Virus record (IMG/VR): IMGVR_UViG_3300009068_000233
Span: 1-21,043 of that record
Reading direction: 5' to 3' (one strand)
Source: a virus
DNA: 21,043 nt
Position 1 is the stretch's first letter, and each line of letters opens with the position of its first letter. Position numbers and translations under genes: made by a program. The notes below the pieces were generated by a model. It did no database searches and was not told the origin of the DNA. It saw nothing but the letters and a program-made list of their open reading frames with translations. Below are positions 2,827 to 13,361 of this stretch, in pieces.

Positions 2827-5800
2827 TCATTTTTCCCAACCTCTTAGTTTGGCTTTTTCACGATACTCTTGTGCTTGTTTCTTAAGCAGCTTTTCACGCT
2901 CTGCTCTAGCAGCTTTCTTTTGTTCTGGTGTTCCACCATAAACAGGAAAGCCAAGTGTTCCTAGTAACGCACGTTTAGCACCTTCGCCTTCAGGAGCGCC
3001 AGCAGCAGCTTGAATTTGAAAGGGTGTAGCCATTTGAGCAACAGCTTTAAGCCTACCAAAAGCACTACGATCAACCAATTTTGGCGCATCAGGACTAGCG
3101 TACTCTAAACCACCAATACCAACAATAGCAGCCTTGGGTATAAACCCTAGTTTATTAGACAGTGTTTTACTTGGGTCCATTATCCAGTGATAGGGTTCCA
3201 TAGCGTGTTTCATAGCTTGCATGGACGTACCGTCAGGATACTCAATACGAGTTGGGTCTTTATTTTCCCAAATAGGACGATCCGCAGTCATCAAGTTAAT
3301 AGCATTAACTAGCGTAAGGTACGTCAAAGCAGTTTTGAATTGATACAACCTAGCATAATCTGCTTTAGTTGTAGGAACCATCATGCCTTTAAGACCTTCA
3401 ACAGGTTGCCATTTAGTAGGATTCAATCCTTTGGGAAGAGCAGCAGTAAATGCTCGCAAAGTAGATATAGTCCAATCAGGAGCAAACAAAAGAACTTGCA
3501 AAGCTCTACGACCTTCAGGACTATACGCAGCCATAGACATGCGTTTAGCAAACTCATTTTGAGTCTGCGTAGCAGCATCAAACCAATTCAAACCACCAAA
3601 ACTGTCGTTAACAAATCTAGAGATTTCTTTACGAGCAACAGCTTCATCAAAAGGTTTGCCGTCTTTAGAAGCTTGTATACGAGCTTTATCTAAATAAGCA
3701 TTAGCCACCATCAACTTACCACCAGTATGCAAATAGTCCCACGTATATTTGTCAAACAAACCTAGGGTGTATTTTTCAACAGCAGTCAAAGACGATTCAA
3801 GTATGCGGGTCTTAGGACCATACTTACCAATCATTGAATCTACAAACTTGCCTGTAGAAGACAAAATACCTCTAACAACATCTTCGGGAATTTCAAGTAC
3901 AAGTCCACCATCTCTAATCCACAGGTCAACACTTTCCCCAACTCCACCTTTTCTAAACTGCTCAACAGCCTTAGAAATTGCAGATAACTGCAACTCTTTA
4001 CCAGTGACAGCTTTGATACCTCTCTCAACAAGAGGCAACACAATAGCTTCTTTAAGTGGTGTCAAAATAGGAATCTGAGCACTAGACATAACTTCCATCA
4101 AAGACTTAGCATGGAAGAAAGAACCAATAACGTTAATACGTTTAGTAAGTTGAGAAACAGCTCCAAGAGCTTTCATCATCTCACCAGGACCAGCATCAAA
4201 AACAAACTTCAAAGCTGGCATCATGTCAGGATGCACGGCATAACCAGCAAACTGAGGACTATCCATCATCTGCCAACCAGGTGGCATTGGATTGTCTTTA
4301 GAAACTTCTTTGATTAAAGTCTCACCATTGACGTTGCGAATCTGTTTAAGACTATCTACAAGATTTTTGTTTTCAATTGCCTTTTCCATTGACAAGGCAT
4401 ACTCTTTATAGATTTCAGCGATGTCTTTGGTCTTAATCTGAATACGATAATCAGATTTACCAGCAGCAGCAATACGAGTGTTAGCTTCGTTTATATACCA
4501 CTCTAAGTCTGCAAAGGTTTTGAACTTACGTTCTTTACCAAATTTAGACTCAGTGCTCATACCTCTCATAGAAGGGTCCCGTGCAGCTGTTCCTAGTAAC
4601 GCTTGGATAAACTCTTCACGAGCACCTTTGGGAGCACCTTTCCAATCAATGATGTGGGTAACGTAATCTTCCAACAGACCTTTAACAACACCAGCATCGA
4701 CAGCACGATTGCCAATATCCTTGACAAGAGCTTCATACTTCTTAGCAAGAACAACTTCTTCAGGACTTAGTTTAGATAGATCACCCCTGTCAACAGCTTC
4801 AGCAACAGCTTCACGCCTAGCAGGATCAGAGATGTCCTTCATCATGTCACTTGCTTCATTGTGAATGATGCGCTCATTGGCAAGTTTGTTTTGGATATTC
4901 ATTCCAACAAACTTCTCAGTCTCTTTGATGGGTTCTAACCAAGTCTTTTTGTAGTTTTTATAACCCTCATAGAACTCAACAGCAGCTACCTTGCCATGTT
5001 TTGCAAAGATGTCAGCAGCAATATCGTAGAACTCTTCCTCACTTTTAACATCACGAGGATCAGTTTTAGTCTTGTCAACAGGAAGCTCATCTGGTGAGCT
5101 TATGGCTTTAGAAGGAACACTTGTTGCAAAATCAGCACGAGGAGTAAACTGCTCAGACTGCTTAAGCATTGAAATGCCACTGTCCATGACCTCATCAAAG
5201 GCTGTACGAGCACCTTCAGGAATGCCGTTGCTTTTACGAACAACTTCTTTGAAAGCACCCCATAAGTTATTAAGAACACCTTTAGGTTGTTGACCAACAC
5301 TAATGCCGCTTAACAATGTTTGAAATCTTTTGCTAGTAAATGCTTCAGCAGTAAACTCATGTATGTCTTCAAATCCGTAATATGGTTTACCTGTAGCAGG
5401 ATCAATTTCTTTACCACGAGCAGCTAGATAGGTATCAAATAGCTCTTGCATCTTGATAGCAGCAGCACTACCCTTTTCATTTAGTAGTCGATGTGTACCA
5501 GCATGAATAGCTTCATGTAACAAGACACGTAAACTGCCGTCTTTACCTAATTGAACTAGGTGTGAATTGCCGCCTGTGTACAAACCCGAAGCATTTTGTT
5601 GTTCAGCACCACTCTTATCTACGTACTCAAGAGGATCATTTGAAAGCTTAAGCTTAGCACTGCGAATGAAATCAGACTTGTTAAGAGCTTTAGCAAGTAT
5701 GCGTTGACTAACAGTTCCTAAACTGGGAGTATCAACAACACGATCTAAAGCTTCGCCTACATTCTTAACGCCATACAAATGATTGTGAAATTCTTCCCAA

Positions 5801-7515
5801 GTAGGTTTGTTGATGTTAGCAAATTTAACTGGAGGCATACTGTCAATTAAATCTTTACGCTTCTGCTCCAATTGTTGTTGTTTTTCTTGCAGATTTTTAA
5901 CAGCCTCAAAATCACCTTTGACTGTAGCTCTTTTTATGTCAATAGGTATGCCAATGTTTAAATCCCAATCTATTTTGGAAACATCATCTTTAATATCCTG
6001 TCTGCCTAAAGGGGCAGACTCCAACATAGATTCTTGTTTAGCAATTTCAGCATTTATTTTGTTTATATTTTTTTGTGCAAGGTCTATTTCAGCTTGATTG
6101 TTATTTTCTTTAGCCAACTTTAGTTCTTCAGTGGCTTCAATTCTAATCATTTCAAGATTGCTAATAACTCTTTTATAGAAGTCTTTATTTTCTTTTGGCA
6201 CACCAATAGGTTGCTCATCAGTAGTTTGAAAACGTTTATCACCAGCTTTACGCAAGTCGTCACTACGCAACCCTACTTCAGGAACTTCTGGCACATAATC
6301 TTTAGGAAGTTGTCCAGTATTTTTAGCACGATCAGCAGCTTCTTGACGAGTTAAAAAGTTACCACGTTCATCTAAGAAACCCTGGTCATGGGTGTCAAAA
6401 GTTTCAAGCTTACGTTGTTCATCATGTTTTGGTCCCATGCGTTCTACTGCACCAGTCTCTTTGTTCCTAATAGCAGCTTCAACAATAGGAGTTTTAGAGT
6501 CACGAATAACTTCAAGCTTATTTAAATAAGCATCTATTTCTTGTGGAGGAGAATCTTTAGGGGGTTCAGGAGGCAAATCAACTGGAGTTATTTCAATAGG
6601 TTTGACAGGTCTAACACCACCAGGTAAGACACTAGAAATTTTTTCACCAATCTTTTGACCAGCAACAAAAGGAATCCTACCTGCTATGTTAAATCCAGGC
6701 ATAGCTGCACCAGCAGCCGTAGCTGCTGCTACTTTCAAAGGTTCAATTGTTCCTGTTTCAGCATATTCAGTACCAGCCTCAATACCACCTTGTAAACCAC
6801 CAGATACAGTACGTTGTCCAATAGGACTAGCAACAAATCGAGCAGCTCTACTAGCGCCATCAGACACAGCACTAACAGCAGTTCTGGGAGACATGCCAGC
6901 CATACCTACACCTAATTCAGTTAAGAATGTAGATGTTGGATATGCTTCTTTTTCTATTTGACGTTGTGCATAATCTTCAGGAGCAAATGTTTTGTGCATC
7001 AAGTCTTGAACTTTTTTAGCAGCACCAGATGCAACCATTGCTCCACCAAATCCACCACCAAGCATAACAGCTCCCCCAACAATAGGAGCAAATGGAGCAC
7101 CAACACCCGTGGCTGCTGTAGCAGCAGCAGCACTAGCAGCATATGGAGCAGCTATAGCCATACCAGCACCAAAGCCAGCTAAACCAGCACCAGTAGGAAC
7201 AATTGCTTCTCCACCAGTACGATATATGTTTCTTCCGAGTCTACTTGCAGCGTCGCTTGTAGAGCCTGATTGCAAACCAGGTTTAGAGTACATACCAAAA
7301 GCAGCACCACCCTCACCCTCAATAATAGGAGTAGTTGAAGGTCTAGCTTCTGGTTTTTTAGGTATCAAATTATCAAAAGAAATATTAGCTTCTTTGGAAG
7401 AACTTGCTTTGCTTGGGATCAAATCATCAAAAGAAATGTTTGTCCCTTTACTTGGAGTTGATGATCCTTGTTGTTTGGTTGGAATAAGATCGTCAAAAGA
7501 AATGTCAGTAGCCAT
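2827..7515 (-). CDS. Giant internal virion / DNA-ejection protein with zincin-like domain
   Basis: This 1562-aa protein is the largest here and probably leaves the capsid with the DNA, like P22 gp16 or T7 gp16. In order: three short repeats of the form ISFDDLIPxK at residues 5-14, 27-36 and 45-54; an Ala/Gly-rich, membrane-like region (about 105-165); long helical segments rich in Lys/Glu (about 450-560); a zinc-protease signature H667-E668-A-I-H671, with candidate third ligands E720/E724 in HEFTAEAF; a helical region with YVTHIIDW near 950; hydrophobic stretches near 1130-1165; and a basic helical C-terminus. The HExxH plus downstream Glu arrangement matches zincin domains of phage polyvalent proteins. 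The ribosome site AGGAG lies inside the end of the upstream gene, 6 bases before the ATG. The role is inferred from size, domains and synteny. Confidence 0.8.
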   Translation of the reverse strand: MATDISFDDLIPTKQQGSSTPSKGTNISFDDLIPSKASSSKEANISFDNLIPKKPEARPSTTPIIEGEGGAAFGMYSKPGLQSGSTSDAASRLGRNIYRTGGEAIVPTGAGLAGFGAGMAIAAPYAASAAAATAATGVGAPFAPIVGGAVMLGGGFGGAMVASGAAKKVQDLMHKTFAPEDYAQRQIEKEAYPTSTFLTELGVGMAGMSPRTAVSAVSDGASRAARFVASPIGQRTVSGGLQGGIEAGTEYAETGTIEPLKVAAATAAGAAMPGFNIAGRIPFVAGQKIGEKISSVLPGGVRPVKPIEITPVDLPPEPPKDSPPQEIDAYLNKLEVIRDSKTPIVEAAIRNKETGAVERMGPKHDEQRKLETFDTHDQGFLDERGNFLTRQEAADRAKNTGQLPKDYVPEVPEVGLRSDDLRKAGDKRFQTTDEQPIGVPKENKDFYKRVISNLEMIRIEATEELKLAKENNNQAEIDLAQKNINKINAEIAKQESMLESAPLGRQDIKDDVSKIDWDLNIGIPIDIKRATVKGDFEAVKNLQEKQQQLEQKRKDLIDSMPPVKFANINKPTWEEFHNHLYGVKNVGEALDRVVDTPSLGTVSQRILAKALNKSDFIRSAKLKLSNDPLEYVDKSGAEQQNASGLYTGGNSHLVQLGKDGSLRVLLHEAIHAGTHRLLNEKGSAAAIKMQELFDTYLAARGKEIDPATGKPYYGFEDIHEFTAEAFTSKRFQTLLSGISVGQQPKGVLNNLWGAFKEVVRKSNGIPEGARTAFDEVMDSGISMLKQSEQFTPRADFATSVPSKAISSPDELPVDKTKTDPRDVKSEEEFYDIAADIFAKHGKVAAVEFYEGYKNYKKTWLEPIKETEKFVGMNIQNKLANERIIHNEASDMMKDISDPARREAVAEAVDRGDLSKLSPEEVVLAKKYEALVKDIGNRAVDAGVVKGLLEDYVTHIIDWKGAPKGAREEFIQALLGTAARDPSMRGMSTESKFGKERKFKTFADLEWYINEANTRIAAAGKSDYRIQIKTKDIAEIYKEYALSMEKAIENKNLVDSLKQIRNVNGETLIKEVSKDNPMPPGWQMMDSPQFAGYAVHPDMMPALKFVFDAGPGEMMKALGAVSQLTKRINVIGSFFHAKSLMEVMSSAQIPILTPLKEAIVLPLVERGIKAVTGKELQLSAISKAVEQFRKGGVGESVDLWIRDGGLVLEIPEDVVRGILSSTGKFVDSMIGKYGPKTRILESSLTAVEKYTLGLFDKYTWDYLHTGGKLMVANAYLDKARIQASKDGKPFDEAVARKEISRFVNDSFGGLNWFDAATQTQNEFAKRMSMAAYSPEGRRALQVLLFAPDWTISTLRAFTAALPKGLNPTKWQPVEGLKGMMVPTTKADYARLYQFKTALTYLTLVNAINLMTADRPIWENKDPTRIEYPDGTSMQAMKHAMEPYHWIMDPSKTLSNKLGFIPKAAIVGIGGLEYASPDAPKLVDRSAFGRLKAVAQMATPFQIQAAAGAPEGEGAKRALLGTLGFPVYGGTPEQKKAARAEREKLLKKQAQEYREKAKLRGWEK
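7354..7503 (-). repeat. Three tandem copies of an ISFDDLIPxK-type peptide motif
   Basis: Within the first 54 residues of the giant ejection protein the motif occurs as ISFDDLIPTK, ISFDDLIPSK and ISFDNLIPKK, separated by Ser/Lys-rich flexible linkers of 12 and 8 residues. Short acidic-hydrophobic motifs spaced by disordered linkers look like docking peptides. The partner is not known. Confidence 0.9.
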
Positions 7516-9136: not shown

Positions 9137-9826
9137 TTAACGAATAGAAGGGCCATAAGCACCTCCATAATTAGCAGTGTCAACCGCACCCATACCGCCA
9201 CTACCAATACCGTAGCCACTTTCATACTGACTAAATCCTTGATCGTTGTATCCATATGGTGCGTTCATTTGTGCGCCAGTACCAGTACCACGATATTGTC
9301 CAGCAAGACCAGAAAGACCTATAGAAAGAGCACCAAGACCTTGTTGAAAGGCTTGTTGATTTTGACTATCTTGAACTAAACCAAGTCTAGCTGCTTCAGA
9401 TGGTGCAGCACCTGCACCAGAACCCACAGCAAGTCGATTAAGATAGTCGGTCATAAAGCCATAGTAGCCTTTTTGTCCAATGCCTTGAAGATCTATTTGC
9501 TCATTACCAGAGTACAACATTCCAGACTTTGATGCAGAACGTTTAGAAGCTTCCATAGCAGGATCTAATACACCACTTTGAAATTGACTATATCCTGGCA
9601 TTTTGGTAGGGTCTAATGTGCTACCACTAGTTAAAGCACCACTATACATAGAAGCAAGATTACTTCTATAAGGAGCAAAAGGATCAGCAGCAGCTTGAGC
9701 TTCAGCACCACTAGCAGAACCCTTGCCACCAAAAAGTTTACTTACTCCACCACCAGTAAGTGCGTTAACACCTGCGGCAATGCCTACAACTGAAGCAACA
9801 GTTGTTAATGAGATTCCAGCAGACAT
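9137..9826 (-). CDS. P22 gp7-like DNA ejection protein
   Basis: This 229-aa protein has a hydrophobic N-terminus (about 5-30, SVVGIAAGVNALTGG) that could insert into a membrane. A Gln/Ser/Ala-rich helical middle and a Gly/Tyr-rich C-terminus with repeated YG elements follow. Small, Gly/Ala-rich proteins with this profile precede the larger ejection proteins in P22-like podoviruses, and the order here matches. The start is secure: a long purine site (GGAGAGGGG) lies 7 bases before the ATG, inside the end of the cupin-SET gene, which it overlaps by 22 bases. Confidence 0.65.
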   Translation of the reverse strand: MSAGISLTTVASVVGIAAGVNALTGGGVSKLFGGKGSASGAEAQAAADPFAPYRSNLASMYSGALTSGSTLDPTKMPGYSQFQSGVLDPAMEASKRSASKSGMLYSGNEQIDLQGIGQKGYYGFMTDYLNRLAVGSGAGAAPSEAARLGLVQDSQNQQAFQQGLGALSIGLSGLAGQYRGTGTGAQMNAPYGYNDQGFSQYESGYGIGSGGMGAVDTANYGGAYGPSIR

Positions 9827-10707
9827 TTTTTATCCCCTCTCCAAAGATTATTTACTTGCATAGCTTGTCGATAGTCTAGAGTTATTTCTTCACCCAGATC
9901 ACCGCCTACCATGCCACTTATATCTCGTAATGCTACTAAGAACATATCTCCAAGACTGTTTGTAAAAGCTACTGCATTAGGAGTCTTAGAGTGGTTAATT
10001 AAATACCCCGCAGGGGTTCTACAACCACCAAGTCTCATAGGTGCAATGATGCTGTTTTGTTTAATCACAGCAGTAGAAAACATTCCTTTACCTTCTATAG
10101 GCGAGTCTCCAGCACATATGCTGTAGCTGCCATCTGGAAAGGGAATGCAATCTTCTCTGTGCTTAGAAGCTAACTCAATGTCTTCTAGAGTCCATCCAGA
10201 CTCTTCAACCATTAGCAAGAAGTCTTGTCGATCTTCTTCATGCAGCGGATATTCTTTAAGCAGTTTTTCTTGTTGATGTTGCTTAAGAATATCTGGAGAC
10301 TTGAACAACACAGACTCAAGGTATTGAACATCTGTGTTATTAGTAACATAGATATTTTGCCACACAACGTCCTCTAAAGTAAAGCCAACTTTACTACCAG
10401 CTTTAGCGACAAACATGTGTGGAGCTACCAAAGTTTGGACTTGACCATCCCCATCAACAACATTGATGCTACCTTTAAGCAACACATTCATATGTTCTGA
10501 AAGGTGTTCCTGACCCACAATCATTGTGTTTTTAGGATAGTAGGCTTCTCGAATATATAAGCCTCCACCAAATCTGTGGACAATAGAATTAGGAGTTTGC
10601 TCCTCATTCATCAACGCTTTAGCCAAAGCTAATTTACTATCTGTAGTACGGAGGTCAAAGCCTTCTTTAGTAGCAACAGAGTTAATAGCTTCTACAATTT
10701 GGTCCAA
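9805..10707 (-). CDS. Cupin-SET fusion protein, putative protein lysine methyltransferase
   Basis: This 300-aa protein has two recognisable parts. Residues about 45-125 look like a cupin barrel: GQEHLSEHMNVLLKGS (65-80) carries H68 and H72 in the first cupin motif, followed by a Pro/Gly turn (AP 95-96, AGS 103-105). The second-motif histidine is not obvious. Residues about 202-282 look like a SET domain: GKGMF (206-210) matches the AdoMet-side GxG segment, NHSKTPNA (238-245) the NHS pseudoknot strand, and GEEITLDY (272-279) the final motif with its Tyr. Cysteines of a post-SET motif are missing. The start is a TTG with AGGAGA 6 bases upstream, embedded in the last codons of the gp10-like gene. 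Likely activity is methylation of a protein Lys, of the virion or the host. The substrate is unknown. Confidence 0.8.
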   Translation of the reverse strand: MDQIVEAINSVATKEGFDLRTTDSKLALAKALMNEEQTPNSIVHRFGGGLYIREAYYPKNTMIVGQEHLSEHMNVLLKGSINVVDGDGQVQTLVAPHMFVAKAGSKVGFTLEDVVWQNIYVTNNTDVQYLESVLFKSPDILKQHQQEKLLKEYPLHEEDRQDFLLMVEESGWTLEDIELASKHREDCIPFPDGSYSICAGDSPIEGKGMFSTAVIKQNSIIAPMRLGGCRTPAGYLINHSKTPNAVAFTNSLGDMFLVALRDISGMVGGDLGEEITLDYRQAMQVNNLWRGDKKCLLESH

Positions 10708-10709
10708 GA

Positions 10710-12179
10710 TTATCTCCTGTAACGTCCACCACCAACTTCTTGCTCTTGGTCCATTTCACCTATCCTAAAGTCTATTTCAGCAGTATCTAAACGAAGAGCA
10801 ACATTACTGCTACACAAGAACTCCCAGGCTCTACGCCTATCAGCACCGCTTAAATAAACTTCTGATCTAGAAGCATTAAGATCAATAGACCTGTAGTTTG
10901 ACCAAGTGTTGTAGTCATCCCCAGTGTGACGTACTTGCATAGTACCAGCAACTTTATCACCAAGGATCTCTAACCTTCCATAGAACTTACGTTTAGTAGT
11001 ACCGTTGTCTATGATGTCTGTGACTGTTCTGCAATAAATTGCTTGCCCATTATCTTGATATGTATCTACACCTAGAGTGTATAAAGTTGCAGTATCATCG
11101 TCTAGAATATATGGAACATTTAAAACCTCTGCATAAAATGCAGGACGGAAATAAGATTCTTGATACGTACCAGGATTGGCTTGATTACTACTTTGTATAG
11201 AGTATTGAGTCCAGGTATACCACATCTTTTCATTGATGTCATATACAAGAGTTTGGTTAGTAGTATATAAAGTTAATATGTAAAGACTGTGCCCATTAAT
11301 AGTGTAGCAATAAGCAGATACTTCGCTAAGCCCATCAGCTGTTAGATGTCGGTCTATATTAGCTGTAGAAATTTTAACAGGAGACACACCGTCCATAATA
11401 TATACAGCTCGTCCATAAGATTTGCCAGAACCTACCCACAACACAGTGTTACTAGTGGCAACAATACTGTCTCCATTAACACAACCAACTTCAGAAGAAT
11501 AACTTGTGGCTACTCCCAAAGGAGAGCCAGTAGCATTGGCAACATCATAAAAAAATTGAGTACTAGAATTACCAAAAGCCACAAGATAATTTAAGTGTCT
11601 GACAATGCCAACAAGTGTGTCTGATGTTTGTTCGAAACTTATGTAGTTTAAAGAATTCCAAGTAGTTGCATCACCAACATCACAGTTGTATATACGATTG
11701 GTAGTTGTACCAAGAAATATATAGTTATTTAAAGCCACAACCCCAGGCACGTAGGGTGCTGTAGGTAAAGTGGCTGTAGCTACAAATGAACCTGCTTGAT
11801 TTAATAGGTAGCCAGTTACTTTATTGTGAAAGAACAGGTTGGCATCTAAAAATGTCTTGGCAAAATAACTTTGGCTAGTTGATGTTGACGTAGTTCCTAA
11901 ATTTGTTACTGCAAAAGAACTGCTAGGATTAATCTGATATACCGTGTTATTAATAACAGCAATAAGTTTGTCGTTAAATTCTACTAGCCCTTGGCTTGGG
12001 GTATATGCAGGGGGTGTAACAGACACAATCTGTTTAACAGACACAAGGCCAGGGCGTTTAACAAACTCTCGTTTTTGATCTCTTGTTTCAAAAAAGCAAT
12101 TAGAAGAATACGAGTCTTTAGCAAACGTCCCATTGCGAGATTCTATTGGTTGAGTAAGAGGAATACGCAAGGTAGCCAT
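10710..12179 (-). CDS. P22 gp10-like tail hub / packaged DNA stabilisation protein
   Basis: This 489-aa protein is beta-rich throughout and of the size of P22 gp10 (about 470 aa), which plugs the tail below the adaptor ring and keeps the DNA inside. Family-like stretches include the N-terminal RNGTFAKDSYSSNCFFE (about 15-31) and KRPGL (41-45). The central AFGNSSTQFFYDVANATGSP (201-220) and the segment VGCVNGDSIVATSNTVLWVG (231-250) are typical of the family and are followed by IMDGVSPVKIST. It lies directly after the gp4-like adaptor, separated by 2 bases, exactly as in P22. The C-terminal codons also carry the ribosome site of the next gene. Confidence 0.85.
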   Translation of the reverse strand: MATLRIPLTQPIESRNGTFAKDSYSSNCFFETRDQKREFVKRPGLVSVKQIVSVTPPAYTPSQGLVEFNDKLIAVINNTVYQINPSSSFAVTNLGTTSTSTSQSYFAKTFLDANLFFHNKVTGYLLNQAGSFVATATLPTAPYVPGVVALNNYIFLGTTTNRIYNCDVGDATTWNSLNYISFEQTSDTLVGIVRHLNYLVAFGNSSTQFFYDVANATGSPLGVATSYSSEVGCVNGDSIVATSNTVLWVGSGKSYGRAVYIMDGVSPVKISTANIDRHLTADGLSEVSAYCYTINGHSLYILTLYTTNQTLVYDINEKMWYTWTQYSIQSSNQANPGTYQESYFRPAFYAEVLNVPYILDDDTATLYTLGVDTYQDNGQAIYCRTVTDIIDNGTTKRKFYGRLEILGDKVAGTMQVRHTGDDYNTWSNYRSIDLNASRSEVYLSGADRRRAWEFLCSSNVALRLDTAEIDFRIGEMDQEQEVGGGRYRR

Positions 12180-12950: not shown

Positions 12951-13361
12951 TTATCCAATTAAAAAGTCGTTTAAACCAGGAGCTTGTTTGTTTGTTATAG
13001 CACATCCTGCTACAGCAGTTGGAGGAATAGCTATAGATCCCTCTAGAGTACATACAGGAAGGTTGCCATAGTTTACATCTGCTTTAGCACAGTCTGCTTG
13101 CCCATAGTCTGCTATACCTTGGGTAGTAATAGGGGTACAAACAACAGCAAAAACATCTGCTTGCCCTGGCCTAGTAAATGGGGGAACTTGTTTATCAGCT
13201 ACACCATGTACAAAGTCTTGTGGTTGCCTTGGTTCCCAATCTCCAGAACAGACCATAAGTCCATCCCAACGAAGTTGTAAATCATCATTTTTAAATTGAC
13301 GACCACAAACATCGCAAACAACTTTCCAAGCTCCATTGTCCCACCTAGGTCTGTACGACAT
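12951..13361 (-). CDS. Small structural-region protein with Cys motif
   Basis: This 136-aa protein is of a type often seen near the neck genes of phages, but I cannot give it a function. The N-terminal 65 residues contain C16-x2-C19 and C38, with RWDGLMVCSGDW followed by EPRQPQDF and H52. This could be an incomplete or His-completed zinc knuckle. The second half is Cys- and Ala-containing with no clear motif (TPITTQGIADYGQADC). The ribosome site is a modest AGG 7 bases before the ATG, overlapping the previous gene's end. Its place just before the gp4-like adaptor suggests a role in head completion or fibre attachment. Confidence 0.7.
   Translation of the reverse strand: MSYRPRWDNGAWKVVCDVCGRQFKNDDLQLRWDGLMVCSGDWEPRQPQDFVHGVADKQVPPFTRPGQADVFAVVCTPITTQGIADYGQADCAKADVNYGNLPVCTLEGSIAIPPTAVAGCAITNKQAPGLNDFLIG

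Follow-up and report, generated by a model that had tools for sequence, protein, structure and literature searches.

A phage cupin-SET fusion family encoded beside ejection-protein-like genes, with a putative protein methyltransferase as an optional module

SET enzymes, which methylate lysines of proteins, have been described mainly in eukaryotes and in a small number of bacteria and archaea. The length of the SET-I insert varies among these enzymes, and MLL1 (KMT2A) has both SET-I and a cysteine post-SET. A compact viral SET domain is found in vSET, a protein of the algal virus PBCV-1. In the PDB, vSET (3kma) is named a histone H3-Lys27 methyltransferase. Among phages, ORF62 of Stenotrophomonas phage Ps15 is described, in the accessible part of the report, as a SET domain protein without assigned function (PMC9025141); its likeness to the protein studied here lies in that description. 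Relatives of our protein have also been catalogued. PHROG 34170 lists the family without function and leaves its SET domain unnamed, the copy in GenBank record MW202744.1 is called 'pbcV-1 histone H3-lys 27 methyltransferase structure', and a structural match in BFVD (A0A6J5PTS6) is labelled 'SET domain containing protein'. Thus, the PHROG family, one GenBank name noting the likeness to a methyltransferase, and published phage SET proteins were already known. Two further families, PHROG 12032 ('short tail fiber protein', an annotation label only) and PHROG 24280 ('tail fiber adhesin', e.g., Thalassomonas phage BA3_0007), have the same cupin in the same gene slot, but the 22 cupin-only proteins compared here are 140-186 aa long and, unlike our protein, lack SET.

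In a search of titles and the beginnings of abstracts, mostly from journals readable without subscription, we found no paper on a cupin-SET fusion. The available portions of reviews on bacterial methyltransferases made no mention of phage SET proteins, and some 'set domain' mentions in the literature referred to immunoglobulin sets. The portions available to us of the P26218 genome paper (PMC4657236) contained no mention of methyltransferase, cupin, or mass spectrometry; those of the PBR31 paper (PMC10975493) mentioned neither methyltransferase nor cupin; and those of the VvAW1 (PMC3558961) and X14 (PMC9011153) papers did not mention mass spectrometry.

The window, by which we mean the whole 21,043-base stretch analyzed, is a linear viral contig. 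An initial annotation had placed a cupin-SET ORF of 300 aa at 9805-10707, and we find it at exactly these coordinates on the minus strand, as are all genes discussed here; the plus-strand reading contains many stops. The ORF starts with TTG, preceded by AGGAGA (10713-10718), which resembles a ribosome-binding site. Directly upstream lies a gp10-like head-closure Hc3 gene (10710-12179; phrog_578, E = 3.5e-43). A 229-aa gene beginning MSAGISL (9137-9826) follows directly downstream and shares 22 bases with the end of the cupin-SET gene. We call it ejection-protein-like from its position and N terminus; it had no match in PHROG. The cupin-SET protein consists of a cupin, or jelly-roll, domain (residues 37-138; 10294-10599), a linker (residues 139-189; 10141-10293) in which DSSP assigned a long helix (139-170) and a second helix (174-181) to the predicted model, and a compact SET domain (residues 190-283; 9859-10140). 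Recurring C-terminal tails in the family, CLLES and GDLCQ, fall inside the overlap with the downstream gene (9805-9826) and may be set by the start of that gene.

The joining of a cupin-like barrel to a SET domain in a single protein, proposed from sequence inspection, was borne out by Pfam, a profile search, and a confident AlphaFold2 model. The Pfam SET profile (PF00856) matched residues 235-279 with 24.4 bits (gathering cut-off 22.4; E = 3.9e-5), and a cyclic-nucleotide-binding profile matched the barrel weakly, below its cut-off. When a family profile (alignment A1) was compared to the PDB, MLL1 was matched (E = 3.5e-6), with the SPIxGxGLF, NHS, and GEExTxDY motifs of the two proteins lining up. 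A single-sequence search of the PDB gave no SET chain, and an NCBIfam search with the cupin-SET protein gave no match. PHROG 12032 matched residues 6-144 (E = 4.1e-24) and PHROG 34170 matched residues 28-284 (E = 7.7e-64); the 296-position profile of the latter also covers the SET-bearing protein of a second locus, L153, from 4 to 290.

The whole-protein AlphaFold2 model, built on 37 aligned natural sequences with the window protein among them, had a mean pLDDT of 91.6 and a pTM of 0.87. Residues 38-123 of this model matched cupins (Z = 11.0 with 5j4g_A, 85 residues aligned, rmsd 2.5; VIA-align 2), assigning the barrel to the cupin-fold (RmlC-like) superfamily of double-stranded beta-barrels, and cupin-fold entries were within the top 50 Foldseek matches of the whole model. 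Residues 190-280 matched the MLL1 SET domain (Z = 9.8 with 7u5v_A, 79 aligned, rmsd 1.9, 29% identity; VIA-align 2). Modelled alone (22 rows; pLDDT 89.9), the SET half had vSET (3kma_A) as its first Foldseek match (E = 3.8e-6), with Z scores of 9.3 against vSET and 10.7 against MLL1 (81 aligned, rmsd 2.1, 30% identity). The SET fold sought at residues 200-280 is therefore present in the predicted structures and, together with the GxG (206-208), NHS (238-240), and GEEITLDY (272-279) motifs and an RT pair at 230-231, assigns this half to the SET family. The NHS and GEEITLDY motifs, as well as H68 and H72 of the barrel, lie at the positions given in the initial annotation. Our protein differs from vSET in that its SET domain is fused to a phage cupin, and from MLL1, with which it shares three SET motifs, in that SET-I is nearly absent.

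To follow up a proposal to search phage genomes for the same fusion and its synteny, we collected relatives, and these form a real family with a recurrent gene slot. A protein scan of viral contigs yielded 76 relatives from 78 stretches. In a scan with the cupin profile, 375 of 388 stretches proved to be relatives. We kept the best 80, a choice that favors loci nearest the window, and many of these repeated contigs that had been fetched already. Among 53 loci that were read, 47 ORFs were complete and all except one contained the GEExTxDY motif (46/47); the exception, L118, has SY at this site and so keeps the tyrosine. In GenBank phages, 57 records were matched, eight over at least 80% of the query and 49 in the cupin part only. 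By name, length, and match, the eight records merge into five distinct phages with the fusion: zth2-2, MW202744, P26218, MW202557/MW202655, and PH1. Four MAG contigs also carry it. A search that used one cupin-only protein as query returned no relatives.

The gene had been placed between the gp10-like gene and an ejection-protein-like gene, and this order holds in the window. At the stop codon of the SET gene, a gene starting with MS[A/G/S] was present in all 64 SET loci with enough sequence (one further locus was too short for this reading). Elsewhere in these loci, the same rule held at 68 of the 736 remaining ORF stops and at 124 of 1300 positions drawn at random. In 54 of the 64 loci, this ejection-like gene and the SET gene overlap, and the two may therefore be translationally coupled. 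In P26218 and L153, the next gene belongs to phrog_598, 'DNA ejection'; the next gene of L116, like that of the window, had no match in PHROG. Searches with phmmer recovered these neighbors less often: with the gp10-like protein of the window as query, the nearest upstream ORF was matched in only 31 of 64 loci, and with the downstream protein of the window, the downstream ORF was matched in only 19 of 54. In some loci, another gene intervenes between gp10 and the cupin.

Phages that encode the cupin alone use the same slot. An ejection or internal-virion gene came next in 13 of 15 annotated phages, a set that includes P22-like and T7-like phages, as called from annotation (BA3, VPMS1, 234P9, and VvAW1), from PHROG (X14, Amaethon, L160, L161, L162, L164, L166, and L167), or from Pfam (Sphaerotilus R1, where the order is tubular B, cupin, and T7_gp14, PF24072, E = 2.2e-23). 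The exceptions were Alteromonas R8W, with RNA polymerase and connector genes on either side of the cupin, and a Melvirus, in which the next gene (phrog_8168) is without assigned function. Homology and the slot before an ejection gene together assign our protein to the podoviral cupin family of PHROG 12032, and, judged from gene order, the cupin-SET gene lies in the virion gene block. In a T7-like phage, the cupin takes the place of gp13, a likeness that we regard as positional analogy only; T7 gp13 matched only its own Pfam family, PF11090. An acetyltransferase-like gp13 gained no support, and Pfam revealed no acetyltransferase-like gene among the eight proteins encoded between the gp10-like gene and the cupin in seven phages.

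By sequence comparison, SET is an optional C-terminal module of this cupin protein. The clearest case is a pair of loci, L153 (287 aa, with SET) and L155 (184 aa, without), which align on both sides of the gene, with 73-82% nucleotide identity in the flanks and 89% in the cupin, and the difference between them is the SET part. In the 39,239-base L155 record, we found no match to SET at E 0.001. We compared 88 proteins picked from the fetched loci (66 with SET and 22 cupin-only): 37 rows of alignment A1 (one per 93%-identity group, with truncated ORFs dropped), 15 + 15 further loci from two later picks, L076, and 20 from GenBank phages. All 22 cupin-only proteins are 140-186 aa long and lack SET, and no other domain was found on the same cupin in the 88 rows, where ORFs either carry SET or have at most 186 aa. 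Outside this check lie longer BFVD matches, for example A0A6J5NYB6, and extensions at the N termini of L070 and L085. When the SET label is mapped on a cupin tree of these rows, four changes are required, two or more of which are forced by starred branches, and a tree that keeps all SET rows together was rejected (p-AU 0.00106). The tree is a quick one built on 112 columns; its branches are long and many of its forks are open, so gains of SET are not separable from losses. Since cupin-only phages share the slot, the cupin seems to be the core, with SET as an added module. In many short-tailed phages the gene for a small barrel protein adjoins DNA-ejection genes, and in the window and its relatives this protein appears to have gained a methyltransferase-type domain.

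One explanation for these observations, which we consider fairly probable, is that the protein is an active compact SET enzyme tethered by its cupin, whichever its target. The gene would encode the cupin protein of the slot between nozzle/head-closure and gp7/gp14-like ejection genes, extended by a C-terminal SET domain. Through its cupin half, the protein would dock on the tail, portal, or ejection-protein assembly. Carried on the long helical arm, the SET half would bind AdoMet through GxG and NH, and Y279 would serve methyl transfer to a lysine of a protein brought near. We regard active protein methylation by the SET half as probable. AdoMet is present in cells at late stages of infection, which makes it somewhat more likely that the target is a structural or ejected protein of the phage, modified during assembly, than that it is a host protein modified after ejection. 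Our most specific proposal is more tentative: that a lineage of short-tailed phages has a tail- or ejection-anchored SET lysine methyltransferase, an exchangeable module on a conserved cupin, that methylates the ejection machinery or a host protein at infection. If so, a eukaryote-style protein-methylation mark would operate within the infection apparatus of a phage. Because the SET domain is conserved and apparently intact in the virion block of cultured phages (Rhodoferax phage P26218 and Pseudoalteromonas phage PH1), phage protein methylation is directly testable, and relatives with and without SET provide a natural comparison.

The same enzyme could have another target. Possibly, the protein is co-ejected and enters the host with the DNA, where it would methylate a host protein, such as a nucleoid, ribosomal, or defense protein. 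This reading, which overlaps with the tethered enzyme proposed above, fits the position of the gene in the ejection block and the coming and going of SET among close relatives, as is often seen with host-interaction genes. It also fits our comparison of the adjacent ejection proteins, in which no column held lysine in more than half of 55 SET-plus rows. Lysine content was 2.1% in the SET-plus and 3.4% in the 20 SET-minus rows. The lack of a shared lysine column weakens the adjacent ejection protein as a substrate with a conserved site, but these proteins align poorly, which leaves room for one. As most of the matched GenBank records (49 of the 57) contain the cupin part only, the slot itself needs no enzyme, and ejection of the protein is conjecture. 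We therefore consider a co-ejected effector rather unlikely.

A tethered enzyme and an effector both presuppose catalysis, and we examined conservation in the SET half. In the 66 SET-bearing rows, G208, R230, T231, N238, E274, T276, and Y279 are invariant, while G206 and H239 are each kept in 65 (once K and once Q, respectively). S240 is A in 18 rows, and D278 is replaced in 10 (N in seven, S in three). The SET-I region, however, is reduced. G208 and N238 are separated by 29 residues in all 66 rows, so SET-I, a usual but not a required part of SET domains, is nearly absent and falls short of its usual length. A cysteine-rich post-SET is also absent from the window protein, and part of the usual AdoMet/peptide pocket must therefore come from elsewhere, perhaps from a dimer partner or the substrate complex. 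The very short SET-I, the absent post-SET, and the replacements of D278 and, once, H239 could instead mean that the SET fold is a structural beta-clip domain that performs no catalysis. As the residues linked to catalysis are among the most fixed (Y279 and N238 in 66/66, H239 in 65/66), while H68 of the cupin drifts in the same proteins, we consider a purely structural role improbable.

The SET half is also under purifying selection. Median dN/dS, calculated from 120 pairs of 16 window-clade genes after excluding saturated and tiny-dS pairs, was 0.075 for the cupin (97 pairs), 0.151 for SET (residues 190-283; 119 pairs), 0.223 for the linker (107 pairs), and 0.382 for the N-terminal 36 residues (102 pairs), values that are rough because synonymous sites are near saturation. 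The existence of a homologue family and this purifying selection rule out a chance or artefactual ORF. Within the family, a second clade of nine loci (L144-L152; Pseudoalteromonas phage PH1 and relatives) has NHA in place of NHS in eight, and NY (six) or SY (two) in place of DY, with the tyrosine kept in all nine.

Two suggestions about the cupin half were not supported: that H68/H72 form a conserved metal motif, and that the cupin could sense a metal or metabolite. Position 68 is H in 32, Q in 25, and Y in nine of the 66 SET rows. H72 is fixed in all 66 (79 of 88 when cupin-only rows are added). Position 107, which we take to be the site of the motif-2 histidine after placing the canonical cupin motif by eye, is V, A, M, I, L, or T in 65 of 66. 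With H72 the only one of these residues fixed in SET rows, the barrel lacks the conserved motif-1 and motif-2 histidines of metal-binding cupins, and we consider it most improbable, despite the clear cupin fold, that the protein is a conventional cupin enzyme or a metal sensor in which SET is regulatory. Given that the metal residues vary or are lacking, and that many phages have a SET-free cupin in this slot, the cupin looks like a structural or assembly part.

We also made observations beyond this gene. Upstream of the adaptor-like and gp10-like genes, the window encodes a protein of 136 aa (12951-13361) that has paired cysteines and a LIM-like match below threshold. A 1562-aa large late protein (2827-7515), which had only a partial match to phrog_839, is perhaps a big internal or ejected protein. 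In a Paraburkholderia MAG (L083), two strong SET-module matches lie on one contig, ~83 kb apart, and perhaps represent two prophages; one stop was counted in the stretch of the first match, yet its ORF reads complete.
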